Assembly (NCBI RefSeq): GCF_014874095.1
Contig: NZ_JADBEB010000001.1
Span: forward strand, 8,370,001 to 8,434,000
DNA from: Plantactinospora soyae
GTDB lineage: Bacteria > Actinomycetota > Actinomycetes > Mycobacteriales > Micromonosporaceae
DNA length: 64,000 nt
Direction: 5' to 3'
The notes under the pieces are model-generated. The model saw only the letters and a list, made by a program, of their open reading frames with translations, made no database searches and was not told where the DNA came from. Positions 17,475-52,775 of the stretch are shown in pieces; the first letter of the stretch is position 1, and every line of letters starts with the position of its first letter. The translations under genes were made by a program, and so were the position numbers.

Positions 17475-17645
17475 ATGACGCGTCCCCTTCGACAGGCTGC
17501 GACGACCGAGCGTCCTGGCTCGCGGGCCCGAGTTACCTCGGGACCGCTCACAGTGGCGCGACCGCTCCGGATTCTCACCGGCTTCCCTCGCGACGCCGCA
17601 GATGGCGAGTTGACGGTATCCGCGCCGTACCCTGCGGTCAACCGG
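17475..17645 (-). ncRNA. Cobalamin riboswitch upstream of cbtB
   Basis: The minus strand carries the B12 element: GCCGGTGAGAATCCGGAGC followed by GCCACTG (17557-17551), then GGTCCCGAGGTAACTCGGGC. The aptamer ends shortly before the AAGGAGG of cbtB, as expected for translational control. High cobalamin should shut off cobalt import. Confidence 0.88.
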
Positions 17646-22029: not shown

Positions 22030-22195
22030 AGTCAGGGTCCTCGGCGCCTGCCGGCCCGAGAGAAGCATCACGCGGCGAACCCGGAGGAACCCGGTGCAAG
22101 TCCGGGGCGGTCCCGCCACTGTCACCGAGCTGGGAATTCAGCTCGGAAGCCAGACACTCCGGATCACCGCACGATCGACCACGACCACGGGCGCG
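22030..22195 (+). ncRNA. Cobalamin riboswitch upstream of cobN
   Basis: The plus strand reads GAGGAACCCGGTGCAAGTCC, then GGCGGTCCCGCCACTGTCAC (B12 box GCCACTG at 22115-22121), and CTCGGAAGCCAGACACTC. It is a textbook cobalamin aptamer, ending just ahead of the GAGGAGG of cobN. Confidence 0.93.
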
Positions 22196-40417: not shown

Positions 40418-41770
40418 CTAGGAGACGGGGGTCGGAACAGCGGTCGGAGGCTGGAACTGGTTGACCGGGCGCGGCAGCCCGTAGTGGTCCCGCAGCGTAC
40501 GGCCGGTGTACTCGGTCCGGAACAGCCCACGCCGTTGCAGCACCGGCACCACGTGGTCGACGAACTCCTCCAGCCCGGAGGGGAGCAGCGGAGGCATGAT
40601 GTTGAAGCCGTCCGCCGCACCGGAGCCGAACCACTCCTCGATCGTGTCGGCGATCTGCTCCGGGGTACCGACGAAGGTCCGGTGCCCGCGACCACCGCCG
40701 AGCCGGGCGAGCAGTTGCCGCACCGTCAGATTCTCCCGCCGAGCCAGGTCGGTGACCAGGGCGAACCGGCTCTGCATGCCCTGTACCGCGCTGACGTCGC
40801 CGACCTCCGGCAGTGGGCTGTCCAGGTCGGCCTCGGTCAGCTCGATCCCGGTGAGGCTGGCGAGCTGACGCAACCCGTACGCCGGCACCTGGAGCCGGGC
40901 CAGTTCGTCGGCCCGCTCCCGGGCCTGCGCCTCGGTCGTCCCGATCACCGGCACGATTCCGGGCAGGATCTTCACCAGCCCGGGGTCCCGGCCCTCGGCG
41001 GCCACCCGCGCCTTCAGGTCGGCGTAGAACGCCTGCCCCTCGGCCAGGGTCTGTTGGGCGGTGAAGACCGCCTCTGCGTACCGGGCGGCGAACTGGCGCC
41101 CGTCCTCGGAGGAGCCGGCCTGGACCAGCAACGGATAGCCCTGTGGTGTCCGAGGTACGTTGAGCGGGCCCTGGACCCGGAAGAACCGACCCTCGTGCGC
41201 GATGGGCCGGATCCGGTCCCCGTACGCGAACCGGCCGTTCGCCTTGTCGCCGAGCAGGAAGTCGTCCGCCCAGCTGTCCCAGAGCTTGCGGCAGACGTCG
41301 ACGAACTCGGCCGCGCGCTCGTACCGGTGCCGGTGCTCGGGCACGTCGTCCAGGCCGAAGTTCCGGGCGGCGTCCCGGCCGGCGGTCGTCACGATGTTCC
41401 AGCCGGCCCGGCCGGCGCTGACGTGGTCGATGGTGGCGAACCGCCGGGCCAGGTTGTACGGCTCGTTGTAGGTGGTCGACGCCGTGGCGACCAGGCCGAT
41501 CCGCTCGGTCGCGGCGGCCAGCGCCGGCAGCAGCACCGTCGGATCGAGCCGGCCCACCGGTCGGTACCGGATATCGCCCTGAAGCGACGGGCCGTCACCG
41601 AAGAAGACGGAGTCGAACCTGCCCCGCTCGGCGACCTGGGCGAGGTGCCGGTAGTGCGCGACGTCCCAGGTGCCGGTCAGACTGCTCTCCGGGAACCGCC
41701 AGGCCGACTCGTGGTGGCCGATGGTCATCAGGAAGGCGTTCAGGTGCAGTTGTCGCCGTGCCACCGTCAC
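40418..41770 (-). CDS. LLM-class flavin monooxygenase (NtaA/SnaA/DszA family), copy 1
   Basis: The 450-residue luciferase-like enzyme has family motifs LHLNAFLMTIGHHESAWRF, RFDSVFFGDGPS, YNEPYNLARRFATIDHVS, GRAGWNIVTTAG and YPLLVQAGSSEDGRQFAARY. Such enzymes use FMNH2 and oxygen to break C-S or C-N bonds. It is a paralogue of the next gene and shares an 82-base identical block at the 3' end. The start is GTG 41770, which overlaps the previous stop (GTGA); GTG 41764 is also possible. The substrate is likely an organosulfur compound by context. Confidence 0.9.
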   Translation of the reverse strand: MTVARRQLHLNAFLMTIGHHESAWRFPESSLTGTWDVAHYRHLAQVAERGRFDSVFFGDGPSLQGDIRYRPVGRLDPTVLLPALAAATERIGLVATASTTYNEPYNLARRFATIDHVSAGRAGWNIVTTAGRDAARNFGLDDVPEHRHRYERAAEFVDVCRKLWDSWADDFLLGDKANGRFAYGDRIRPIAHEGRFFRVQGPLNVPRTPQGYPLLVQAGSSEDGRQFAARYAEAVFTAQQTLAEGQAFYADLKARVAAEGRDPGLVKILPGIVPVIGTTEAQARERADELARLQVPAYGLRQLASLTGIELTEADLDSPLPEVGDVSAVQGMQSRFALVTDLARRENLTVRQLLARLGGGRGHRTFVGTPEQIADTIEEWFGSGAADGFNIMPPLLPSGLEEFVDHVVPVLQRRGLFRTEYTGRTLRDHYGLPRPVNQFQPPTAVPTPVS

Positions 41771-43122
41771 ACCGCCTGCCCGACGAGCCGCCGGTCCGCC
41801 GCGTTGCGGTTGACCGGGCGCGGCAGCCCGTAGTGGTCCCGCAGCGTACGGCCGGTGTACTCGGTCCGGAACAGCCCACGCCGTTGCAGGATCGGCACCA
41901 CGTGGTCCACGAACGCGACAAGTCCGGAGGGCAGCGCCGGCGGCATGATGTTGAAGCCGTCGGCGGCACCGTTGTGCCACCAGTCCTCGATGGCGTCGGC
42001 CACCTGCTCCGGGGTGCCGGCGAAGGTGTGGTGCCCGCGACCTCCGCCCAGCCGCCCGATCAACTGGCGGACGGTCAGCCGCTCCCGGCGGGCCAGCGCG
42101 ACGATCAGGGTACGACGGCTCTTCGCCCCCTCGATCTGGTCCTCGTCGGGCAGTTCCGCCGGCAGTTCCCGGTCAAGGTCCAGGTCGTCCGGCGGGATGC
42201 CGAGCGTGGTGGCGAGCTGGCGCTTGGCGTACTCCGGTTTGATCAGCCGGTCCAGCTCGTCCGCCAGAACGTGCGCCTGCGCCTCGGTCGCGCCGAGAAC
42301 CGGCACGATGCCCGGCAGGATCTTGATGCCGTCCGGATCCCGTCCCACCGCTCGGGTCCGGGCCTTGAGGTCGGCGTAGAACGCCTGCGCCTCGGCCAGG
42401 GTCTGTTGGGCGGTGAAGACGGCCTCGGCGTACCGGGCGGCCAACTCCTTGCCGTCGGTCGAGGAGCCGGCCTGCACCAGCAGCGGGTAGCCCTGGGGAG
42501 CGCGCGGCAGGTTGAGCGCACCGGCCACCTTGAAGAACCGCCCGACGTGTCCGGGCGGGAAGATCCGATCCTGGTCGCCCCAGATCCCGGCCGCCTTGTC
42601 CCCGAGCGCGGCGTCGTCGGCCCAGCTGTCCCAGAGCTTGCGCGAGACGTCGATGAACTCGGCGGCCCGCTCGTACCGGTCCCGGTGTGCGGGCAGGTCG
42701 TCCAGGTTGAAGTTGCGGGCCGCGTCCGCACCGGCCGTGGTCACGATGTTCCAGCCGGCCCGGCCGCCGCTGACGTGGTCCACCGAGGCGAACCGCCGGG
42801 CCAGGTTGTACGGCTCGTTGTACGTGGTGGAGGCGGTCGCGATCAGCCCGATGTGCCGGGTCACCCCGGCGAGTGCGGTGAGCAGTACGGTCGGCTCCAG
42901 CGCGCCGGACGGCCGGCGGCCGACGTTGTTCCACAGCACTGGACTGTCGGCCAGGAACAGCGAGTCCAGCTTGCCGCGTTCGGCGATCCGGGCCAGTTCC
43001 TGGAAATGCGCGACGTCGGTGTGCGCGAACGGGTCGCTCTCGGGCAGCCGCCAGGCCGCCTCGTGGTGTCCCACCCCCATCAGGAACGCGTTGAGGTGCA
43101 GGGTTCCCGGTCGTCGGCTCAT
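41767..43122 (-). CDS. LLM-class flavin monooxygenase (NtaA/SnaA/DszA family), copy 2
   Basis: The 451-residue paralogue of the previous gene has LHLNAFLMGVGHHEAAWRLP, ASTTYNEPYNLARRFASVDH, GRAGWNIVTTAGADAARNFN and QGYPLLVQAGSSTDGKELAA. The C-terminal stretch LQRRGLFRTEYTGRTLRDHY is identical in both. It overlaps SsuB (ATGA). Two adjacent paralogues may form a heteromeric enzyme or cover different substrates. Confidence 0.9.
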   Translation of the reverse strand: MSRRPGTLHLNAFLMGVGHHEAAWRLPESDPFAHTDVAHFQELARIAERGKLDSLFLADSPVLWNNVGRRPSGALEPTVLLTALAGVTRHIGLIATASTTYNEPYNLARRFASVDHVSGGRAGWNIVTTAGADAARNFNLDDLPAHRDRYERAAEFIDVSRKLWDSWADDAALGDKAAGIWGDQDRIFPPGHVGRFFKVAGALNLPRAPQGYPLLVQAGSSTDGKELAARYAEAVFTAQQTLAEAQAFYADLKARTRAVGRDPDGIKILPGIVPVLGATEAQAHVLADELDRLIKPEYAKRQLATTLGIPPDDLDLDRELPAELPDEDQIEGAKSRRTLIVALARRERLTVRQLIGRLGGGRGHHTFAGTPEQVADAIEDWWHNGAADGFNIMPPALPSGLVAFVDHVVPILQRRGLFRTEYTGRTLRDHYGLPRPVNRNAADRRLVGQAV

Positions 43123-43883
43123 GCGGGGATCTCCTCGGTCTGGGTGACGCCGAGCGCGGCGAGCAGCCGTTCCCGGTAGGTCAGGAAGTGCGGATGCCGG
43201 TGCTCGCGCGGCGCGGGCAGCTCGATGGCGGTGTCGACGGTGATCCGGCCGGCGTCGAGCACCAGTACCCGGTCGGCGAGGGCGACCGCCTCGTCGACGT
43301 CGTGGGTGACGAGCAGCACCGCCGGCCGGTGCCGCTGGCACAGCTCGCGCAGCAGGCCGTGCATCCTGATCCGGGTCAGCGCGTCCAGCGCGCCGAAGGG
43401 CTCGTCGGCGAGCAGCAGCCTCGGCTCGCTGACCAGTGACCGGGCCAGCGCCACGCGCTGCTGCTCGCCGCCGGAGAGCTGGTTGGGCCAGGCCCGCTCC
43501 CGACCGGCGAGGCCGACCTCGGCCAGCCGCTCCCGACCCCGCTGCATCGCCCCCGGCCCACCGAGTCCAAGTACGACGTTGGCCAGCACCCGCTGCCAGG
43601 GCAGCAGCCGGGCATCCTGGAAGATCACCGAGGAGTTCTCCGGTACGTCGACCTGCCCGTCGCCGGCCACGTCCGGGTCCAGCCCGGCCAGCGCCCGGAG
43701 CAGGGTGCTCTTGCCCGAGCCGCTGCGCCCCAGCAGGGCGACGAACTCGTTCTCGCCGATCTCCAGGTCCAGGTCGTCCAGCACCGTACGCCCACCGAAC
43801 CGCCGGCTCAGCCCGCGTATCCGTACCACCGGGTCGAGCGCGGTGCTGCCGTCGGCGGTCAGTCCGCCAGGGTGCGTCGCCAT
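43119..43883 (-). CDS. ssuB: Aliphatic sulfonate ABC transporter ATPase (SsuB-like)
   Basis: The 254-residue ATPase shows LLGRSGSGKSTLLRALAGLD (Walker A), FQDARLLPWQRVLANVVLGL (the Q-loop with LLPW typical of nitrate/sulfonate/taurine importers), LSGGEQQRVALARSL, LLLADEPFGALDAL and VTHDVDEAVALADRVL. It overlaps the permease gene by 25 bases. Confidence 0.93.
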   Translation of the reverse strand: MATHPGGLTADGSTALDPVVRIRGLSRRFGGRTVLDDLDLEIGENEFVALLGRSGSGKSTLLRALAGLDPDVAGDGQVDVPENSSVIFQDARLLPWQRVLANVVLGLGGPGAMQRGRERLAEVGLAGRERAWPNQLSGGEQQRVALARSLVSEPRLLLADEPFGALDALTRIRMHGLLRELCQRHRPAVLLVTHDVDEAVALADRVLVLDAGRITVDTAIELPAPREHRHPHFLTYRERLLAALGVTQTEEIPA

Positions 43884-44782
43884 GAGAGCGCCCTCCGCTG
43901 CACGAGTCGGACGGCGCCGTCGGAGAGCAGTCCGAGGATGCCGTAGAGGACCAGCCCGACGACGATGATGTCGGTCTGGCCGTACTGCCGGGCCAACTCC
44001 ATCAGGTAGCCGATCCCGCTGGTCGAGTTGATCTGCTCGACCACCACCAGGGAGAGCCAGGCGGAGACCACCGCGAACCGCAGCCCGAGCAGGAAGCCGG
44101 GCAGCGCACCCGGCAGCACCACCCGGCGGAGGAACTGGCCAGGGCTCAGCCGCAGCGCCTCGGCGAGTTCGACGTAGCGTTGGTCGATGCTGCGCAGCCC
44201 GTTGTGGGTGTGGATGTAGACCGGTACGAAGACGCCGAGGGTGATGGTGACGATCTTCATCTGCTCGTCGATGCCGAGCCAGAGGATCAGCAGGGGCAAC
44301 AGGGCCAGCGCCGGAATCGCCCGCTTGATCTGCACCGGTCCGTCGATCACCGCCTCGCCCCACCGGCTGAGTCCGGCGATCACGGCGAGGACCGTTCCGA
44401 TCAGGACGCCGAAGGCCAGCCCGAGCCCGGCCCGCTGGGTTGAGATCAGCAGGCTCTCCTGGAGCCGACCGCTGGCGATCAGGTCGCCACTGGTGGAGAC
44501 GACCGTCCACGGCGCCGAGAGGGTCCGCTCGTCGAGTACGCCGGTCAGCGAGCCGAGCGACCAGAGCGCGAGCAGCAGCAGCGGCCCGAGCGCGGCGCCG
44601 AACGGGATCGGCCGGCCCGGTCCGAGGCGTCGTCGACGCCGTGTTCCCGATCGTCGGCCGGCGGAAGTGCCCGTTCCCCGGGCGGGGCGGGAGGACTCGA
44701 CCCGCTCCGGCCGGGCCGTCGGCGCCGGCTGGGCCGTCTGCGCGGGTGTCCGGGCGGCCACGGGGTTCACCTGGGTGGTCAC
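43859..44782 (-). CDS. ssuC: Aliphatic sulfonate ABC transporter permease (SsuC-like)
   Basis: The 307-residue permease has a long charged N-terminus (about 60 residues) before the first helix, then helices and the SsuC/TauC EAA region (ELAEALRLSPGQFLRRVVLP with GALPGFLLGLRF) and LEQINSTSGIG-like VVVEQINSTSGIGYLM. GTG 44782 overlaps the binding protein stop. The N-terminal extension is rich in Arg, Ala and Pro and is unusual for the family. Confidence 0.92.
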   Translation of the reverse strand: MTTQVNPVAARTPAQTAQPAPTARPERVESSRPARGTGTSAGRRSGTRRRRRLGPGRPIPFGAALGPLLLLALWSLGSLTGVLDERTLSAPWTVVSTSGDLIASGRLQESLLISTQRAGLGLAFGVLIGTVLAVIAGLSRWGEAVIDGPVQIKRAIPALALLPLLILWLGIDEQMKIVTITLGVFVPVYIHTHNGLRSIDQRYVELAEALRLSPGQFLRRVVLPGALPGFLLGLRFAVVSAWLSLVVVEQINSTSGIGYLMELARQYGQTDIIVVGLVLYGILGLLSDGAVRLVQRRALSWRRTLAD

Positions 44783-45870
44783 TTCAGCCCCTCCTCGAAC
44801 GCGGTGGCGCCGACCGACTCGTAGCGGCGGTCGTAGAGGTCGGCGGCGTTCAGGGATTTGTTGCCGGTCTCCTTGGCGAGCAGGTCGATGGTCTGCTGGT
44901 GTCGGGCGATCACGTCCGACCAGCTCGGCGGGATGTCCGGTACCCCGGCGTTGTCGACCAGCCACTGACCGTCCGCCCGGGACAGCCCCTGGTCCTTGAC
45001 GTAGTACCGGTCGATCCACTCGTCCGGGTGCCGCTCGATCCAGACCCAGGCTCGGGCCCAGGCCTGGACGTACTCCCGGATCGCCGCCGCCTTGGCCGGG
45101 TCCTGGAGGGTCTCGGCCCGGACGTAGAGGTGGCCCGGGTCGTCCCGGAGTCCGTGCGAGATGGTGGTGGCGCCGTCCCGGGCGTACTTGGCCAGATAGC
45201 GCTTGATGTTGATGCCGCCGATCGGTGCCACGTCGACCTGGCGGCTGGCCAGCGCGGTCGGGTACACATCGCCGGTGCTGGCCAGTTCGACCAGTTTGAC
45301 GTCGCCCCTGGTCAGTCCGGCCTGGTGCAGCACCCGCAGCACCAGCGCACCCTGGGCCTGCCCGGGGCTGTAGGCGATCCTCTTTCCGCGCAGGTCGGCG
45401 ACGGTGGAGACGCCGGCTCCGGGCGCGATGCCGAGCTGGTAGATCGGGTGGTTCACCGGGTCCTGCCGGAACTTGGCCGCGACGATCTTCGTGGCCAGCC
45501 CGGTCCAGGCGGCGTGGATCGGCGGGATGTCGGCCACCGAACCGATGTCCAACGCGTCCGCCCGGAACGCCTCCAGGGTCTCCGGACCGCCGCTGATGTT
45601 CGCCCACGAGACGTCGAAGCTGAGCTTCGCCGCCTCACCGGAGAACTCGATCGCCTTCTGTAGTTCCTTGTCGCCGACCCGGAGCACCGTGCCGCCCGGC
45701 ACCTGCGCCGGCAGCGGTGCGTCGAGGGCCAGCCGGACCGTGGGCCCGTCGTCCCCCGCGCAGCCGGTCAGTCCGGCGGCGGCGACCCCGAGCGTGGCCG
45801 CGAGGAGGGTACGCCGACGGAGCACCGGCGGGCCGGAAAACGGAGTAGCGGAACTGTGCGGAGGTGACAT
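44779..45870 (-). CDS. ssuA: Sulfonate/taurine ABC transporter substrate-binding lipoprotein (SsuA-like)
   Basis: The 363-residue protein begins with a signal containing RRRTLLAATLGVAAAGLTGC (lipid Cys37). The mature part has the SsuA/TauA pattern: VSWANISGGPETLEAFRADA, LDIGSVADIPPIHAAWTGLA and GKRIAYSPGQAQGALVLRVL. It delivers sulfonates to SsuC/SsuB. A 142-base gap with GGCGGCGCGGGTCGGAGG repeats separates it from the flavin reductase gene. Confidence 0.92.
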   Translation of the reverse strand: MSPPHSSATPFSGPPVLRRRTLLAATLGVAAAGLTGCAGDDGPTVRLALDAPLPAQVPGGTVLRVGDKELQKAIEFSGEAAKLSFDVSWANISGGPETLEAFRADALDIGSVADIPPIHAAWTGLATKIVAAKFRQDPVNHPIYQLGIAPGAGVSTVADLRGKRIAYSPGQAQGALVLRVLHQAGLTRGDVKLVELASTGDVYPTALASRQVDVAPIGGINIKRYLAKYARDGATTISHGLRDDPGHLYVRAETLQDPAKAAAIREYVQAWARAWVWIERHPDEWIDRYYVKDQGLSRADGQWLVDNAGVPDIPPSWSDVIARHQQTIDLLAKETGNKSLNAADLYDRRYESVGATAFEEGLK

Positions 45871-46012: not shown

Positions 46013-46510
46013 TCAGGCGGCGAGGGACGCGTACCGGCCCATGTGGTAGAGCAGCGGCGCGTCGTCGTCTCCGCCGTGTCCGCCGACCAGTGGCTCGGCC
46101 AGCACGATCGCGTGGTCACCGGCGACGACCCGCTCCACGACCCGACACACCAGCCAGGCGACGGGCCCGTCCAGCAGCGGCACGTCGTACGGGCCGAGCC
46201 GCCATTGCGGGTGGGCGGCGAACCGGTCGATGCCACTGGTGGCGAACGTCCGGGCCACCTCGTGCTGTCCCTGCGCCAGCAGGTGTACGCCGACGTGTCC
46301 GGTGTCGGCCACCGTCGGCCAGCTCGACGACGTCCGGGAGAGGCAGAAGGAGACCAGCGGCGGATGCAGCGAGACCGAGGTGAACGACGTCGCGGTGAAG
46401 CCGACCGGTGGCTGGCCGGCGGCGGTCACCACGGTCACCGCGGCGGCCTGCCGGCGGAGCAGGGACCGGAACCGTGTCGCGTCGATCGGGGTCAGGTCGG
46501 TGATGCTCAT
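46013..46510 (-). CDS. Flavin reductase (RutF/HpaC-like)
   Basis: The 165-residue FMN-binding split-barrel protein has RSLLRRQAAAVTVVTAAGQP, GFTATSFTSVSLHPPLVSFC and DHAIVLAEPLVGG. It reduces flavin with NAD(P)H for partner monooxygenases, here the LLM enzymes. It is the first large gene after the leader peptide at 46730. An AGGAGAG ribosome binding site precedes ATG 46510. Confidence 0.9.
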   Translation of the reverse strand: MSITDLTPIDATRFRSLLRRQAAAVTVVTAAGQPPVGFTATSFTSVSLHPPLVSFCLSRTSSSWPTVADTGHVGVHLLAQGQHEVARTFATSGIDRFAAHPQWRLGPYDVPLLDGPVAWLVCRVVERVVAGDHAIVLAEPLVGGHGGDDDAPLLYHMGRYASLAA

Positions 46511-46533
46511 GACGTCTCTCCTAACCGTCCGGG

Positions 46534-46556
46534 AACTGCCACGATCGGCGGCAGTT
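46534..46556 (-). promoter_or_regulatory. 7-bp hairpin just upstream of the flavin reductase RBS
   Basis: AACTGCC (46534-46540) and GGCAGTT (46550-46556) pair perfectly around nine bases. It lies within the 219-base stretch between the leader peptide and the first structural gene, which also contains a GCGGG-TTTG-CCCGC hairpin (46630-46643). These could be alternative structures for attenuation, but I cannot fold the RNA here. Confidence 0.3.
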
Positions 46557-46729
46557 GGGCAGCGACCATCCCCGGTACCGGGATGCGTGCGATGGCAGCG
46601 GCCGGTACCAGCGGGGTGGTTCACGAAGGCGGGTTTGCCCGCACGACGGTGTGCGGCGGGATGACGTGGGCTGGAGTCAGCGGGCGTCGGCCCGACGACG
46701 CGGCCGGCAGTGTGCCGGTCCGGTCGTGG

Positions 46730-46813
46730 TCAGCGGGGACAGCCTGCGCTGGCGTGACGCACCAGATCGATGTGCAGGCGGCTGACGAGGTGGAGGATGT
46801 ATCGCCGCTGCAT
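46730..46813 (-). CDS. Leader peptide 1 upstream of the sulfonate operon
   Basis: A 27-codon ORF starts at ATG 46813 with a GGAGG site nine bases upstream. Its C-terminal half reads SRLHIDLVRHASAGC-PR. This is the pattern of the short actinobacterial peptides annotated as putative leader peptide ([RL]-H-[VI]-D-L-x-R-x-x-S-A-x-C) that precede sulfur-assimilation genes. The single Cys codon is third from last. A matching ORF precedes the second LLM operon. It probably mediates cysteine-responsive attenuation. It lies 219 bases before the flavin reductase. Confidence 0.75.
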   Translation of the reverse strand: MQRRYILHLVSRLHIDLVRHASAGCPR

Positions 46814-46854
46814 GTGATCTATCCTCCGCGACCGGCCCAACGCGGTCAACGATG

Positions 46855-46869
46855 TTCCATATTCTGGAA
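46855..46869. promoter_or_regulatory. Inverted repeat upstream of leader 1
   Basis: TTCCA-TATTC-TGGAA is a 5-bp perfect inverted pair, about 42 bases upstream of the leader ATG, and probably in the promoter region (GAATAT on the minus strand is a possible -10). The binding factor is unknown; it does not match the CCTA-N9-TAGG motif. Confidence 0.35.
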
Positions 46870-47053
46870 GATAAGCATCTCTGCTTCGCCGCAACCGTGT
46901 CCTCATCCACCGTCCGATTCGGAACTGCGAGCAAAACCCCAGCTCTTCTGCCATACAGGCGCGATCGCTCCGCCCTCCACCACGTGCTCGTATTACCTAC
47001 TGCACCGATGGGATTTCGGAGATTTTTCTCCGGATCGGCGGCACCGCCGGCCG

Positions 47054-48184
47054 TCACTCGAACCACTCCTTGGCCAGCAGTTCGTACGACTCGACCCGGG
47101 CGCCGTGGTCGTGGGTGATCGTGGTGACCAGCAGCTCGTCGGCCCGGGTGGCGTCCCGCAGGATCCGCAGCCCGGCCGCCACCGTCGCCGGTGAGCCGAC
47201 GAACTGGGTCGCGATCCGGTCCGCCACCAGTTCACGATCGGCCACACTCCACTCGTGCGCGGCGGCCTGCTGCGGTGTGGGGAACGGAATCGCCCCCTCC
47301 CCACGGCGGATGCTCCGCACCCAGAGCCCGTACGGCGCGGCCTGTTCCCGAGCCGTCCCGGTGCTGGCCGCCACCACCGCGTCGGCGGAGACGACGACGT
47401 ACGGCTCGGCGAGTACGGCGGAAGGCGTGAACGCCGCCCGGTACGCCCGTACCGCCTCCAGCACCGTCGCCGGACTGACGTGGTAGTTGGCGACGAACGG
47501 CAGCCCGAGCGCGCCGGCCAGCTGGGCACTCTGGCCGGCACTGCTGCCCAGCAGCCAGACCTGGAGGTCGGCCCCCTCCCCCGGCACCGCGTGCGCGTCC
47601 AGCTCCGACTCGTCGCGGTACTCCCCGCGCAGCAGAGCCAGGATGTCGCCGACCTGCTCGGCGAAGTCCGGCGGCTCGGCGCCGGGCTGCTGCAACAGAT
47701 TGGAGTAGAGGGCGAACCGGGGCGAGGCGATCAGACTGGCGAAGGAGAACGGGGCCGGAATCAGCAGCCCGTCGACCACCCGGGCCTCGGGCGGTGGCGG
47801 TGCCGGCGTTCCCGTCGCCAGTTCCCGGACGGCCTCGGCGCGACGCTGGCCGGACCGGCCGAGACCGAGGTCGATCCGACCGGGAAACAGCGCGTCCAGG
47901 GTGCCGAACTGCTCGACCACGGCCAGCGGCGTCTGGTGTCCCAGTTGCACCGCGCCCGAGCCGACCCGGATCGACCGGGTCGCGGCCGCGACCTGTCCGA
48001 TCAGGACTGCCGGCGCCGCGCTGGCGACCCCGGCGGCGAAGTGGTGCTCGGCGAGCCAGTACCGCCGGTAGCCGAACTGCTCGGCCCGGCGGGCCAGGTC
48101 GATGGTGTTGCGCAGGGCGTCGCCGACCGTACCGCCGGCGGGCACCGGCGAGAGATCGAGCACGGACAGTGGCGTCGGTGACAT
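47054..48184 (-). CDS. LLM-class oxidoreductase (luciferase-like, single-domain bacterial type)
   Basis: The 376-residue protein begins PLSVLDLSPVPAGGTVGDAL and has YRRYWLAEHHFAAGVASAAP, VGSGAVQLGHQTPLAVVEQF, GRIDLGLGRSGQ and LQVWLLGSSAGQSAQLAGAL. These are the features of the MsnO8/YwcH-type LLM group rather than NtaA-type. It is the last gene of the second leader-controlled operon, 16 bases after a 38-residue ORF. Flavin supply probably comes from the reductases of the first operon. Confidence 0.9.
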   Translation of the reverse strand: MSPTPLSVLDLSPVPAGGTVGDALRNTIDLARRAEQFGYRRYWLAEHHFAAGVASAAPAVLIGQVAAATRSIRVGSGAVQLGHQTPLAVVEQFGTLDALFPGRIDLGLGRSGQRRAEAVRELATGTPAPPPPEARVVDGLLIPAPFSFASLIASPRFALYSNLLQQPGAEPPDFAEQVGDILALLRGEYRDESELDAHAVPGEGADLQVWLLGSSAGQSAQLAGALGLPFVANYHVSPATVLEAVRAYRAAFTPSAVLAEPYVVVSADAVVAASTGTAREQAAPYGLWVRSIRRGEGAIPFPTPQQAAAHEWSVADRELVADRIATQFVGSPATVAAGLRILRDATRADELLVTTITHDHGARVESYELLAKEWFE

Positions 48185-48200
48185 GGCGATTCCGATCCGG

Positions 48201-48317
48201 TCAGGCCGCGACCGCGGCGGAACAGGTGACCTTCTCCCCCAGCCGGAGCCGGCGGAACAGCTGGTAGCCCTCCCGGATCCGCTGCCGCTGCCGGTCGGCC
48301 GACGGAAACGTCGTCAT
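48201..48317 (-). CDS. 38-residue small protein between LLM genes
   Basis: ATG 48317 overlaps the stop of the upstream LLM gene (ATGA) and the stop lies 16 bases before the next LLM start, so the ORF is embedded in the operon. The product is basic and helical: SADRQRQRIREGYQLFRRL then RLGEKVTCSAAVAA, with one Cys. Spacing and coupling argue for translation. I do not recognise the family; it could be a small cofactor or chaperone for the LLM enzymes. Confidence 0.55.
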   Translation of the reverse strand: MTTFPSADRQRQRIREGYQLFRRLRLGEKVTCSAAVAA

Positions 48318-49672
48318 CCGACGACGGCGGGCTCGGCCGCCACGCGGGCCGGGCCGAGGCCGAGGTGACCCCGCAGCGTCCGGCTGGTGTATTCGGTGCG
48401 GAACACCCCGCGCCCCTGGAGCAGCGGCACCACCCGGTCGACGAAGTCGTCCAGCCCGCCCGGCGTCAGGTGCGGTACCAGGATGAAGCCGTCCGCCGCG
48501 TCGGCCTGCACGAAGTGGTCCATCTGCTCGGCCACCCGGGCCGGGGTGCCGACGAACGACTGTCTACCCGTCACCTCGATGATCAGGTCCCGGATGCCGA
48601 GCCCCTTCTCCTGCGCCAGCGCCCGCCACTTCCGGGCCGTCGCCACCGGATCGGCGTACATCCGGGTCCGGCCGTCGGCGATCGACGAGTCCGAGACGTC
48701 AGGGTCCTCGGCCGGCAGTGGCCCGTCCGGGTCGTGGCCGGACAGGTCCCGGTTCCACACCTGTTCCAGCAGCAGGATCGCGGTCTGCGGGCTGACCTGC
48801 TGGCGGCGGATGTACTGCGCGCGCTCCTGCGCGTCGGCGTCGGTGTCACCGAGTACGAAGGTCACCCCTGGGATGATCTTCAACTCCTCCGGTGTCCGGC
48901 CGTACCGGGCCAGTCGGGACTTCACGTCGGCGTAGAACGCCCGGCCGGACTCCAGGGTGCCGTGCCGGGAGAAGACGACGTCGGCGTCGGCCGCCGCGAA
49001 CTCCCGTCCCTCGGCCGAGTCGCCGGCCTGGATGATCACCGGATGCCCCTGTGGGCTGGGCGGCACCGTGAAGTGCCCGGCGATGTCGAACTGCTCGCCG
49101 TGGTGTGCGAAGGCGCCCGGATCGGGATGTCGGACGAACCGGCCGGTGGCCCGGTCACCCAGCACCGCGTCCACCGGCCAGGAGTCCCACAGCCGCCGGG
49201 CGACCCGGACGAACTCGGCCGCCCGCTCGTAGCGCAGCGGGTAGTCCAGGAAACCGCCCCGGCGGAAGTTCTCCCCGGTGAAGGCGTTGGACGAGGTGAC
49301 CACGTTCCAGCCCGCCCGGCCGTCCGACAGGTGGTCCAGGGTGGCCAACTGACGGGCCAGCTCGTACGGCTCCCGGAAGGTGGCGTTCATCGTCCCGGCC
49401 AGCCCCAGGTGGGTGGTGACCGAGGCCAGCGCGGCCAACAGGGTGAGGCTGTCCGGCCGGCCGACCACGTCCAGGTCGTAGATTCTCCCGCGCTGCTCCC
49501 GCAGGCGCAGTCCCTCGGCCAGGAAGAAGAAATCGAATTTGCCGCGCTCCGCCGTCCTGGCCAGGCGGACGAAGGAGGCGAAATCGATCTGGCTGCCGGA
49601 CTCCGGATCACTCCACACCGTCTGGTTGTTCACCCCGGGGAAGTGCGCGGCGAGGATCATCTGCTTGGGCAT
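48314..49672 (-). CDS. LLM-class flavin monooxygenase (NtaA/DmoA family), copy 3
   Basis: The 452-residue enzyme starts MPKQMILAAHFPGVNNQTVW and carries GKFDFFFLAEGLRLRE, YELARQLATLDHLSDGRAGW, NVVTSSNAFTGENFRRGGF and GHPVIIQAGDSAEGREFAAA. It resembles DszA/DmoA-like enzymes (dibenzothiophene sulfone and dimethylsulfide monooxygenases). ATG 49672 with AAGGTGG upstream is preferred to the GTG nine bases earlier. It lies 17 bases after the copy-4 stop. Confidence 0.9.
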   Translation of the reverse strand: MPKQMILAAHFPGVNNQTVWSDPESGSQIDFASFVRLARTAERGKFDFFFLAEGLRLREQRGRIYDLDVVGRPDSLTLLAALASVTTHLGLAGTMNATFREPYELARQLATLDHLSDGRAGWNVVTSSNAFTGENFRRGGFLDYPLRYERAAEFVRVARRLWDSWPVDAVLGDRATGRFVRHPDPGAFAHHGEQFDIAGHFTVPPSPQGHPVIIQAGDSAEGREFAAADADVVFSRHGTLESGRAFYADVKSRLARYGRTPEELKIIPGVTFVLGDTDADAQERAQYIRRQQVSPQTAILLLEQVWNRDLSGHDPDGPLPAEDPDVSDSSIADGRTRMYADPVATARKWRALAQEKGLGIRDLIIEVTGRQSFVGTPARVAEQMDHFVQADAADGFILVPHLTPGGLDDFVDRVVPLLQGRGVFRTEYTSRTLRGHLGLGPARVAAEPAVVG

Positions 49673-49689
49673 GGCTACCACCTTCGAGG

Positions 49690-50898
49690 TCAGGTTGGCG
49701 TTCCGACGGCGTACCGGTTGGCTGGTCGGGTCAGGCCCAGCAGGTCACGCAGGGTGCCGCCGGGGTAGGCGGCCCGGAACAGGCCCCGGTCGCGCAGGGC
49801 CGGCACCAGCGTCCGACTGATCGCGGCGAGGTCGTCCGGGAGCACGGCGGGACGCAGCCGGAACCCGTCGAGGCCGGCCCGGCGCCAGTGGCCGAGCAGG
49901 TCGGCGAGTTCGTCGGCGGTGCCGGCGAAGACCGGGGCGTCGAAGACCGGCTCCGCGCCGTGCAGCCCGTCGAGCCGGTCCCGACGGCGCCACGCCGCCG
50001 AGGCGTCCTCGTCGAGGAGTACGACCAGGTCGGCGAGGACCTTCAGCGGCTCACAGATCCGGCCGACCGTGTCCTCCGCCGCCCGGACCTCGGTCACGAT
50101 CGCCTCGGCCGCGTCGGCGTCGGGCGGGGTCACGAAGACGACGTCCGCACTGGCTGCGGCGAAGGCGTACGGCACCGACGAGTGCGCCAGCGTGGCGACC
50201 ACCGGCTGCCCCTGCGGCGGCCGGGGCACGATGGACGGTCCCTTGACGCTGAACCACCGGCCCCGGAAGTCGATGTAGTGCAACCGGTCCCGGTCGACGA
50301 AGCGACCGCTCGGCAGATCACGGATCACCGCGTCGTCCTGCCAGCTGTCCCAGAGCCGCCGTACCACCTCCACCACGTCCGCAGCCTCGGTGAACAGGTC
50401 GCCGACGAGTTCGACGTACGCCGGTTCGGCGAACAGGTCCGGGCGCAGCTCGGGCAGGTCGCGGCGGCCGAAGTGGCCCGTCTCGGACCGCCGAGCCGAG
50501 ATCCTCGGGCGCCAGCCGGCCCGGCCGGAACTGACGTGGTCGAGGGTGGCGATCGCGGTTGAGACGTGGAACGGCTCGGTGTGCGTGGTGCTGGTGGTCG
50601 GGATCAGCCCGATGTGCCTGGTCAGCGGCGCGATCCGGGCGGCCAGCAACACCGCGTCGAGCCGGCCGCGCACCTGGTCGGTACGCCCGTCCGGACCGTC
50701 CGGGCGGGACGACTGCAGATCGAGGGAGTCTTCGATGGTGACGAAGTCGAGCAGTCCGCGTTCCGCCTCGGCGACCAGGTTGGCCCAGTAGGACGCGGAC
50801 CAGAGTGCCTCGGGGGCGGTGCCGGCGAGCCGCCAGGCGGCCGGATGCCAACCGGCCCCGTCGAGGGCGGCGGCGAGATGCAGGGGTGGGTGGGGCAT
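49690..50898 (-). CDS. LLM-class flavin monooxygenase, copy 4
   Basis: The 402-residue protein is a more divergent LLM member: LHLAAALDGAGWHPAAWRL, AERGLLDFVTIEDSLDLQSS, TRHIGLIPTTSTTHTEPFHV, ATLDHVSSGRAGWRPR and GQPVVATLAHSSVPYAFAAA. It opens the operon after leader 2. The N-terminal TIM-barrel motifs are retained, but the sequence after GRAGW (W-R-P-R instead of W-N-V-V-T-S) differs from the others, so the substrate is likely different. Confidence 0.88.
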   Translation of the reverse strand: MPHPPLHLAAALDGAGWHPAAWRLAGTAPEALWSASYWANLVAEAERGLLDFVTIEDSLDLQSSRPDGPDGRTDQVRGRLDAVLLAARIAPLTRHIGLIPTTSTTHTEPFHVSTAIATLDHVSSGRAGWRPRISARRSETGHFGRRDLPELRPDLFAEPAYVELVGDLFTEAADVVEVVRRLWDSWQDDAVIRDLPSGRFVDRDRLHYIDFRGRWFSVKGPSIVPRPPQGQPVVATLAHSSVPYAFAAASADVVFVTPPDADAAEAIVTEVRAAEDTVGRICEPLKVLADLVVLLDEDASAAWRRRDRLDGLHGAEPVFDAPVFAGTADELADLLGHWRRAGLDGFRLRPAVLPDDLAAISRTLVPALRDRGLFRAAYPGGTLRDLLGLTRPANRYAVGTPT

Positions 50899-51018
50899 CG
50901 GATTCCTCCAGGTCTACGGCGGCGGGGTGTACCGGGGGTTTCCGCCGGAGTGGCTGGATCGGTGGAGCTACGGTGCGACCGCTGCGGCGCGATCGACCGC
51001 CGGAGCGGGGGCGGTTCG

Positions 51019-51114
51019 TCAGGAGATGACGCCGCGCCGTCCGGGACAGATCGGCGAGGCAACCCGCATCAGGTCGACAACCCTGCGGGAGGTGAGTCGG
51101 ATGCCGGCCAGCAT
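51019..51114 (-). CDS. Leader peptide 2 upstream of the second LLM operon
   Basis: A 31-codon ORF starts at ATG 51114. It includes TSRRVVDLMRVASPIC-PG, which aligns with leader 1: S-R-x-x-[IV]-D-L-x-R-x-A-S-x-x-C-P. The stop at 51019 is 120 bases before the first LLM gene. GGGGAG directly precedes the ATG and AGGA lies further upstream, so the exact RBS is uncertain. A CCTA-N9-TAGG site lies 12 bases upstream. It is too short for routine gene callers. Confidence 0.7.
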   Translation of the reverse strand: MLAGIRLTSRRVVDLMRVASPICPGRRGVIS

Positions 51115-51125
51115 CTCCCCATTTT

Positions 51126-51142
51126 CCTATCGACTCAGTAGG
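51126..51142 (-). promoter_or_regulatory. CCTA-N9-TAGG motif upstream of leader 2
   Basis: On the minus strand CCTACTGAGTCGATAGG ends 12 bases before the leader ATG. It matches 13 of 17 positions with the site at 37848. The neighbouring Rrf2 protein is the obvious candidate to bind it. Confidence 0.5.
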
Positions 51143-51256
51143 TATTGCAAGGCCCCGTGCACGACAACCGGTCGGCCGTCCACCACCGGCGCGGCGCCCT
51201 CGGCCGTTCGGCGCCGAGCAGCGCCGGAAAGTCCACCCCGCTCGACCTTGCCTCTT

Positions 51257-51293
51257 CCCTACTAAGGCCTTAATCTCGATCGAGATAGTAGGG
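51257..51293. promoter_or_regulatory. Palindromic operator region of the rrf2 gene
   Basis: CCCTACTA (51257-51264) and TAGTAGGG (51286-51293) are perfect inverted arms. Between them lie AAGGCCTT and the 14-bp palindrome ATCTCGATCGAGAT (51273-51286). Positions 51276-51292 match the reverse complement of the leader-2 motif at 12 of 17 bases. This suggests autoregulation by Rrf2. Confidence 0.55.
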
Positions 51294-51362
51294 TTTTGAA
51301 GCGGCGCTCACCCCCGACGACTACGCCGGTAGCCGTCACCCCCAGCGAGGGATCCCGATGCC

Positions 51363-51788
51363 GTGCATGTCTCAGCTCGTAGCGACTACGCGGTCCAGGC
51401 GATGTTAGGCATCGCCGCCGCCGGCGGGGCCACCGGTTACCCCGTCACCGCAGCCAGTCTCTCCGACACCCAACACATCCCGTTGAGCTTCCTGCAGAGC
51501 ATCCTGCTGGACCTACGCCGTGCCGGCCTGCTCGTCAGCCACCGAGGCACCGATGGTGGTTACGTACTGGCCCGATCCCCCGCCGAGATCACCGTCGGCG
51601 AGATCCTCCGCTGCGTGAGCGGCGAACTGAGCAGCATCCGTGGCACACCCGCACGACTGACCACGTACGACGGTGCGGCGTACGGGCTGCACGAGTTCTG
51701 GATGTCCGTACACCAGGCCATCACGGACCTCGTCGACGACACCACGCTCACGGATTTGCTGACCAGGCAGCGGCGCCCGGTCAGCTGA
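51363..51788 (+). CDS. Rrf2-family transcriptional regulator (CymR-like, no Fe-S cysteines)
   Basis: The 141-residue protein starts MHVSARSDYAVQAMLGIAAA with the Rrf2 winged helix (SLSDTQHIPLSFLQSILLDL, RRAGLLVSHRGTDGGYVLAR, EITVGEILRCVSGEL). Iron-sulfur members such as IscR have three spaced cysteines; here only Cys84 is present, so it is closer to CymR, which senses cysteine through a partner enzyme. It is divergent from the leader-2 operon and upstream of a TSUP permease, which fits control of sulfur genes. Start is GTG. Confidence 0.9.
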   Translation: MHVSARSDYAVQAMLGIAAAGGATGYPVTAASLSDTQHIPLSFLQSILLDLRRAGLLVSHRGTDGGYVLARSPAEITVGEILRCVSGELSSIRGTPARLTTYDGAAYGLHEFWMSVHQAITDLVDDTTLTDLLTRQRRPVS

Positions 51789-51830
51789 CACCCCCATCGA
51801 AACCCCCACCCCGGACTGGTGGTACAGCAC

Positions 51831-52775
51831 ATGCGAAGACTCCTCCTCCTCGCCCTCGTCGGCCTCGGAGCCCAGCTCGTCGACGGCAGCCTCGGCATGG
51901 CGTACGGCGTGACCTCGACAACCCTGCTACTCGCCATCGGCACCAACCCGGCCGCCGCGTCGGCCACGGTCCACCTCGCCGAGATCGGCACGACCCTGGT
52001 CTCCGGTGCCTCGCACTGGAAGTTCGGCAACGTCGACTGGAAGGTCGTCGCGAAGATCGGCATACCGGGTGCGGTCGGCGCCTTCGCCGGTGCCACCTTC
52101 CTCTCCGGCCTCTCCACCGAGACCGCCGCGCCGCTGATGTCGATCATCCTGCTGGCTCTCGGCCTCTACATCCTGGTCCGGTTCACCACGTTCGGCCTGC
52201 CCAAGGGGAACCTCGGCAAGCCGCTGCGCAAGCGCTTCCTGGCCCCGCTGGGCGTCGTCGCCGGCTTCGTCGACTCCACCGGCGGTGGCGGCTGGGGTCC
52301 GGTCGGCACTCCCGCCATCCTGGCCAGTGGTCGCCTCGAACCGCGCAAGACGATCGGCTCGATCGACACCAGCGAGTTCCTCGTGGCCGTCGCCGCCAGT
52401 CTCGGCTTCTTCGTCGGCATCGGCTCGGAGAACATCAACTTCACCTGGGTCGCCGCGCTGCTCATCGGTGGCGTCATCGCGGCGCCGCTCGCGGCCTGGC
52501 TGGTCCGGCACATCCCGCCGAGGGTGCTCGGCTCGGCGGTCGGCGGAATCATCATCCTGACCAACATCCGCACCCTGCTGCGCAGCGACTGGATCGACGC
52601 CCCCGACAACGTCCGGTACACGGTCTACGCCGTGATCTACGTGGTCTGGGCTGCCGCGCTGGCGTACTCCATCCGGGCGTACCTGGCCAACCGCGAGCAG
52701 GAGCGGCTCGATCTCGAGACCGCCCTGGCCAGCGGACCGACGGACGACGAGAAGGCTGCCACTCCGGCCCCGTGA
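51831..52775 (+). CDS. TSUP-family permease (TauE/SafE sulfite/sulfonate type)
   Basis: The 314-residue membrane protein has eight or so helices with the two-fold repeat of the TSUP family: MRRLLLLALVGLGAQLVDGS-type first half (GMAYGVTSTTLLLAIG, AEIGTTLVSGASHWKFGNVD) and second half (GVVAGFVDSTGGGGWGPVGT, IGSIDTSEFLVAVAASLGFF). The family moves sulfite, sulfonates or sulfate. It follows rrf2 by 42 bases and probably exports sulfite released by the LLM enzymes or imports sulfur anions. An in-frame GTG at 51819 is an alternative start. Confidence 0.9.
   Translation: MRRLLLLALVGLGAQLVDGSLGMAYGVTSTTLLLAIGTNPAAASATVHLAEIGTTLVSGASHWKFGNVDWKVVAKIGIPGAVGAFAGATFLSGLSTETAAPLMSIILLALGLYILVRFTTFGLPKGNLGKPLRKRFLAPLGVVAGFVDSTGGGGWGPVGTPAILASGRLEPRKTIGSIDTSEFLVAVAASLGFFVGIGSENINFTWVAALLIGGVIAAPLAAWLVRHIPPRVLGSAVGGIIILTNIRTLLRSDWIDAPDNVRYTVYAVIYVVWAAALAYSIRAYLANREQERLDLETALASGPTDDEKAATPAP

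Follow-up and report, generated by a model that had tools for sequence, protein, structure and literature searches.

Two short open reading frames (ORFs) on the minus strand of a 64,000-nucleotide stretch of Plantactinospora soyae DNA (the window, whose positions are used throughout) probably encode leader peptides that act in cis and tie the expression of sulfur-scavenging operons to how much cysteinyl-tRNA is available, by ribosome arrest at one UGU codon and probably by the exclusion of Rho. Part by part, and judged from sequence comparison, it is very likely that these are cysteine-responsive leaders and likely that UGU is the sensing codon; Rho as the output is an even call. Leader 1 (46730..46813, 27 codons) reads MQRRYILHLVSRLHIDLVRHASAGCPR and leader 2 (51019..51114, 31 codons) reads MLAGIRLTSRRVVDLMRVASPICPGRRGVIS, each ending with a stop codon. 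Both ORFs lie where an earlier, sequence-only reading of the window had placed them, and both match exactly the core that it had drawn, S-R-x-x-[IV]-D-L-x-R-x-A-S-x-x-C-P, with a single Cys each and a run of Cys codons in neither. That reading had also called them unlinked homologs: the kinship stands, but both lie on the same strand with 4.2 kb between them, and an orthologous locus is not shared.

Scored against the NCBIfam model NF042934 (cis_reg_atten, "putative leader peptide"), leader 1 reaches 27.6 bits (E = 1.6e-6), above the curated cutoff of 27, and drops to 24.4 bits when the 74-codon frame is used as the query. Leader 2, at 25.1 bits (E = 9.8e-6), falls below the cutoff and is handled here as a homolog outside it. 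In the 9.7-Mb genome, the corresponding E values are 1.1e-4 and 7.5e-4. A GGAGG at 46823..46827 (minus strand), the likely Shine-Dalgarno site of leader 1, lies 9 nt 5' of its ATG, which argues against a leaderless mRNA for this leader; no Shine-Dalgarno site at a suitable distance precedes leader 2.

The evidence for the sensing codon comes from a family-wide codon alignment, in which residues are numbered from the invariant Asp (D0), so that the Cys is D+9. Part of the family matches was fetched, giving 182 loci, 175 of them with a leader and 166 leaders distinct. The D+9 Cys codon is UGU in 165 of these 166, compared with 7/73 of the Cys codons at D+2, 7/55 at D+7, and 39/464 in adjacent ORFs. 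The third-base statistic at D+9 (G = 802, 1 df) amounts to 3.48 bits per codon, while no other column with at least 75 codons exceeds 0.65. The base that follows this UGU is C in 80% and T in 19% of the leaders; it is C after both window codons (46739..46741 in leader 1 and 51046..51048 in leader 2, both minus strand). The Cys codon, which the earlier reading had expected to be conserved, is thus the most constrained codon of the leaders. From the Asp onward, which is how Cys residues were counted, 67 of the 166 leaders have one Cys.

Leaders were picked by a finder in which [IVLMT]D[LYFHM] was mandatory and Arg and Cys were favored, and the 166 leaders derive from a hidden Markov model (HMM) with a Cys column, so that the presence of Cys at D+9 is biased in this set, although the choice of codon is not. 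Seven loci missed by the finder and checked later hold eight leaders, all with UGU and seven with a pyrimidine next. Because the HMM includes the Cys column, the test was repeated without the HMM or any Cys requirement: orthologs of LLM_e (a luciferase-like monooxygenase [LLM] encoded behind leader 2), the flavin reductase, and NirA were collected by protein search, and a short frame matching R..[IVM]D[LFYHM].R was sought within the 600 nt 5' of each gene. Such a frame is present at 74 of 224 distinct anchor genes (32/135 for LLM_e, 19/59 for the flavin reductase, and 23/30 for NirA). Among the 68 distinct leaders obtained, 8 of which overlap the first set, D+9 is Cys in 68, its codon is UGU in 67, and a pyrimidine follows in 65; the motif demanded R-4, D0, and R+3, whose invariance this sample thus cannot test. 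The anchor genes' own Cys codons are UGU in 7 of 194 cases. When the Cys-free motif was sought in long open frames of the loci, D+9 was Cys in 0/50 instances, so that chance fails to account for the core plus Cys.

Several causes of the UGU rule other than decoding were examined. An effect of the following base was rejected, since background Cys codons followed by C are UGU in only 13 of 156 cases; at D+2, an internal control within the leaders, 67 of the 73 Cys codons have C as the next base, and these 67 comprise 60 UGC and 7 UGU. RNA folding was also rejected, because U versus C at this position alters folding no more than C-to-U changes at random positions do (P = 0.14). The same result weakens the idea that UGU is preserved as part of an RNA structure or of an RNA-binding site; this would fit a constraint acting at the nucleotide level (UGUY), but the bases beyond UGUY are weakly conserved (at most 0.66 bits) and no Rfam family reaches its gathering score at either window leader, and we regard it as improbable. 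A short CAG...CTG hairpin around UGU was dropped because it is broken in about 13% of the one-Cys leaders. The prevalence of AGC among the Ser codons at D+6 (97/107) was set aside as a nucleotide constraint, since AGC and TCN are two changes apart and descent can account for it.

We take the UGU rule to reflect selection on decoding. A GCA anticodon reads UGU by wobble. A search of the window's genome gave 65 tRNA matches, whose loci were scanned with ARAGORN; two tRNA-Cys genes were identified, both with the anticodon GCA, and two predicted tRNAs, from L460 and L474, lack a clear anticodon. With GCA in every tRNA-Cys gene identified, UGU must be read by wobble. Locus L460 (G000:C1:8870666-8873020) is an array of about 20 tRNA genes, some of them degenerate, perhaps belonging to a mobile element or a phage.

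Around the sensing codon, the peptide itself appears to be constrained. R-4 and R+3 are Arg in 166/166 leaders and D0 is invariant, figures that may overstate the invariance because both the HMM and the finder favor these residues. Their codons are free: R-4 is encoded by CGA, CGC, CGG, CGT, or AGG and the Asp by GAC (119) or GAT (47), so that the constraint at R-4, D0, and R+3 acts on amino acids. In six leaders, a stop codon directly follows the Cys, and therefore nothing past it is required in those six. With D+9 in the A site, the peptide from R-4 to D+8 would sit in the upper exit tunnel and slow the ribosome, and the wobble-read UGU would be the single step limited by charged tRNA-Cys.

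This arrangement is reminiscent of E. coli TnaC, a short peptide with Rho-dependent output in which Trp12, Asp16, Ile19, and Pro24 are described as critical when the stop codon occupies the A site (PMC8429421, seen in part). In leader numbering, with +9 as the A-site position, these residues fall at -4, 0, +3, and +8, so that the critical Asp is equally far from the A-site codon. The leaders could then be TnaC-like arrest peptides, in which the nascent chain, perhaps with free cysteine or another tunnel ligand, arrests with UGU in the A site and tRNA charging is secondary. The match of the invariant -4, 0, and +3 positions, the constraint on amino acids with free codons, and the sufficiency of one Cys in those 67 leaders all speak for it. 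With three marked positions in about 16, we calculate a chance near 1 in 560 of exact register agreement, for a comparison made afterwards. The leaders have R instead of W at -4 and R instead of I at +3, a ligand has no indication here, and TnaC arrests at a stop codon with tryptophan as the inducer; no homology is claimed, and we consider an arrest of this type unlikely. More speculatively, and less likely than not, actinobacteria may share a nascent-chain sulfur sensor in the TnaC tunnel register, whose conserved R-x-x-[IV]-D-L-x-R peptide would arrest the ribosome at one wobble-read UGU-pyrimidine codon and control many sulfur operons via Rho. If so, a single codon and not a Cys run would give the cysteine response, and sensing would lie in the decoding of one synonymous codon, a step that the state of tRNA-Cys might tune.

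The genes behind the leaders fit the link to sulfur scavenging that the sequence-only reading had suggested. Query proteins were sought within 2.5 kb downstream of each of the 166 leaders, and the first match was taken. It was cysA2-like for 48 leaders, nirA for 34, an LLM enzyme for 8 (LLM_e 5, LLM_a 1, LLM_c 1, and LLM_d 1), cysM-like for 8, a binding protein of the type found at locus L003 for 7, the flavin reductase for 5, and a sulfonate-type binding protein for 2. The remaining 54 leaders had no match to the query proteins, and 30 of them were given a Pfam scan. First-gene ORFs were chosen by codon-position GC, a choice that is wrong at some loci. The Pfam scan yielded six SBP_bac_5 and three NMT1 binding proteins, two PAPS reductase domains, two sulfatases, two cysteine dioxygenases, one FMN reductase, one LLM enzyme, a tetrapyrrole methylase with an NAD-binding domain (sirohaem-synthase-like), a Cys/Met metabolism enzyme, and a sodium:dicarboxylate symporter. 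The family thus mostly precedes sulfur genes.

A profile search of the whole P. soyae genome returned 19 matches at E values up to 10, of which five were judged credible on sequence and context. The three members outside the window, with gene names assigned in this analysis from sequence, are L001 (three Cys), 5' of a cysA2-like sulfurtransferase gene; L005 (one Cys), 5' of the sulfite/nitrite reductase gene nirA; and L003 (two Cys), 5' of the gene of an amino-acid-type ABC binding protein. Since cysA2 and nirA carry leaders in this genome as they do in mycobacteria, the link within the family is also a link of target genes. At L003, a SAM riboswitch (RF00162; 1700-1608, minus strand) lies just 5' of the Cys leader, as in all seven orthologous loci scanned (L003, L117-L121, and L125), an arrangement that amounts to tandem SAM/cysteine control; in another family, L109 has a SAM-IV riboswitch 5' of its leader.

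The leaders are widespread among actinobacteria. Of the 61 genomes searched as relatives (own genome counted), 54 have matches at E values up to 0.01, and of 148 genomes in a class-wide sample, 110 have matches at E values up to 0.001 among those listed; in the 10 genomes of genus g72, 4 to 11 matches per genome are listed. No match was found in 14 control genomes at E values up to 0.01 or 0.001; at E values up to 10, matches appear in 10 of the 14, none above the cutoff. One control, Corynebacterium glutamicum, is an actinobacterium, yet it has no match. Divergent leader pairs, with about 65 to 180 nt between the matched cores and perhaps a common promoter region, occur at G058:C57:40374-40553, G048:C1:6931167-6931447, G052:C1:2790303-2790584, G080:C251:3248-3485, and G187:C520:3768-3939.

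Conservation of the ORF and of its Cys codon, the point on which the earlier reading was open to refutation, holds for leader 1, which three species or strains of the same genus (L077-L079) retain together with the gene behind it and a fourth (L398) has in a diverged form. L398 carries two leader-like ORFs in tandem, each with UGU at D+9, ahead of a single flavin reductase gene.

The spacers between leaders and genes suggest how arrest might be turned into expression. Across the family they are C rich and G poor, with a C-G skew of 0.213 (93 loci) compared with -0.010 on the 5' side of the leaders and 0.047 within ORFs; between -120 and -14, it is 0.212 (n = 78), as against 0.011 (n = 57) for control 5' regions taken from these loci and from the window. 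Both window spacers, at 46525..46729 behind leader 1 (skew 0.19) and at 50912..51018 behind leader 2 (skew 0.28), resemble Rho utilization (rut) sites by composition alone. No intrinsic terminator was predicted in either; the region 46400-51400 holds one, outside the spacers, versus 0.9 expected, and a sigma-70 promoter scan of the same region found none. Runs of five T occur in 5 of 96 family spacers. When cysteine is ample, the ribosome would pass UGU and terminate within a few codons, exposing an untranslated C-rich, G-poor spacer on which Rho could load and end transcription. When cysteine is scarce, the ribosome would stay at the end of the leader and keep Rho off, and the operon would be transcribed.

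Several points weigh against this explanation as a whole or in part. A C-G skew is no proof of Rho, and Canestrari 2020 reportedly gives sequestration of the ribosome-binding site as the mechanism in M. smegmatis. Cysteine-responsive attenuation in mycobacterial relatives, which speaks for a cysteine-sensing leader, is attributed to that work by citing papers, and PMC13236596, as far as covered, speaks of translation attenuation. By analogy, the leader RNA would hide the ribosome-binding site of the first gene until a ribosome stalled at Cys frees it. The RNA from leader 1 to its gene is indeed more stable than its shuffled versions (z = -2.98); in the predicted fold, though, the Shine-Dalgarno site is base-paired to the beginning of the gene it serves, and the RNA of leader 2 is no better than its shuffles (z = -0.69). 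We simulated a ribosome at 32 positions in 96 loci, each with one mononucleotide-shuffled spacer (131 of the 166 leaders have a recognized Shine-Dalgarno site, and 96 of these have spacers of 15 to 260 nt). With the ribosome at D+9, the accessibility of the Shine-Dalgarno site is predicted thermodynamically to rise by 0.032 (standard error [SE], 0.009) with native and by 0.028 (SE, 0.010) with shuffled spacers, and this equality indicates that the opening effect is unspecific. Leader 2 is among the 96 loci; leader 1 is not and was therefore scanned separately (10 shuffles). By the same type of prediction, simulated stalling opens neither site, accessibility going from 0.468 to 0.426 for leader 1 and from 0.144 to 0.143 for leader 2.

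On these predictions, native and shuffled spacers agree, and alternative hairpins at the downstream ribosome-binding site were set aside. The earlier proposal of such hairpins in 46511-46813 and 50899-51114 found no support, with neither a terminator in the window spacers nor a predicted Shine-Dalgarno opening beyond the shuffled controls in the 96 loci or at either window leader. Translational attenuation thus seems somewhat unlikely here, and Rho-dependent attenuation is our better guess than Shine-Dalgarno opening.

The opposing points also concern leader 2 and some of the targets. Leader 2 was not found 5' of the closest LLM_e ortholog (L367, same genus, 83% identity); there and in another genome of the family (L368), the LLM_e gene lies behind an ABC ATPase gene, where the window has leader 2, and in Micromonospora humi (L257) the upstream end is the same as in L368. 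No leader motif was found at five Micromonospora loci, and among the best matches of a longer list from Micromonosporaceae, own genome excluded, it precedes 2/29 LLM_e and 5/29 flavin reductase genes. Leader 2 might then be a nonfunctional copy that has decayed or has moved recently, as its score below the family cutoff could also suggest. However, it retains R-4, D0, R+3, UGU with the next C, and a C-rich spacer, and a leader precedes the same LLM gene at 23 of the 80 loci that come from named records, including named Streptomyces (LLM_e), which makes loss of function rather unlikely. For leader 2, the conservation sought by the sequence-only reading thus breaks down locally, at the nearest orthologs, and reappears in more distant ones.

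As for the targets, Pfam by itself gives no clear connection to sulfur for 10 of the 30 scanned: two ABC permeases, an SBP_bac_11 protein, a carboxypeptidase, two ROK proteins, a short-chain dehydrogenase, a pyruvate:ferredoxin oxidoreductase, an acyl-CoA dehydrogenase, and one with only a subthreshold match. In genus g72, eight look-alike leaders of the form VRLWRRVHMDL[VL]RYAGCVCRPS[CF] (L146-L152 and L194) keep the UGU rule, and the two that were checked with Pfam precede cysteine dioxygenase, a cysteine-consuming enzyme. Such an enzyme should not be induced by low cysteine, so that a simple starvation switch leaves these leaders unexplained and the sign of their regulation is puzzling.

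The kind of leader described here is not new, and the earlier statement that these peptides are known from annotation alone is not supported. In the portions covered, PMC4633059 describes, in 2015, mycobacterial Cys-rich leaders before cysA2, Rv0485, and nirA, with ribosomes seen on the cysA2 leader. The leaders Ms5788A and Ms4527A (NF042933 and NF042936; cysA2 and nirA) share the Asp-Leu core and the target genes of L001 and L005, but they are described as Cys rich in the text covered, whereas the window leaders have one Cys and score far below the cutoff of the specific models (21.9 and 18.9 versus 45 bits). Compared with the poly-Cys attenuators of the Canestrari type, the sulfur-gene context is the same and the Cys run is missing in the window. 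Seliverstov et al. (2005) predicted Cys leaders before cys operons without terminators and suggested a tna-like Rho mechanism, which they termed weak (PMC1262725, seen in part); their leaders, from Mycobacterium, Propionibacterium acnes, and Bifidobacterium longum, have Cys runs, no UGU rule is given in the portion covered, and we liken them to ours by description, not by peptide sequence. The trp, ilv, and leu attenuators of Streptomyces also combine a leader peptide with regulatory codons, several with a hairpin and a U-rich terminator, and the S. lividans reannotation gives eight leader peptides, none for cysteine in the part covered (PMC8079986). Both window spacers differ from the classical trp type, which has an intrinsic terminator between leader and gene.

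The NF042934 record, in the form seen, gives a name and a score, with no mechanism or codon rule. Our literature search found no paper naming the UGU rule or the one-Cys form, and none for the core peptide strings and family names, although it covered subscription literature thinly and Canestrari 2020 may hold the rule. What appears new is therefore the one-Cys form before many sulfur genes, UGU at D+9 with a pyrimidine next, invariant residues with free codons, and C-rich spacers in which terminators are rare. If our explanation is right, cysteine attenuation would be a class-wide regulon, with up to 11 matches per genome among those listed and members in named Streptomyces, and not a mycobacterial peculiarity of Cys runs. 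The near-invariant UGU would be a rare clean case of selection on one synonymous codon pointing to its function, and the leaders would offer a handle on genes for the use of sulfonates, sulfate esters, and cysteine in soil actinobacteria.

In the window, Pfam bears out the claim that each leader precedes an operon with LLM enzymes. On the minus strand, leader 1 is followed by a flavin reductase gene (46013..46510, PF01613), a gene for an NMT1-type, sulfonate-like substrate-binding protein (44779..45870, PF09084), ABC transporter genes, and, farther down, LLM enzymes, one of them at 41767..43341 (PF00296; a mechanical ORF whose true start lies inside). Leader 2 is followed by three LLM monooxygenase genes (PF00296), LLM_e at 49690..50898, LLM_d at 48314..49681, and LLM_c at 47054..48184. 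Divergent from this second operon, a TauE/SafE-type sulfite exporter gene occupies 51819-52775 on the plus strand. Elsewhere in the window, two matches to cobalamin riboswitches lie at 17488-17628 (minus strand) and 22084-22159 (plus strand).

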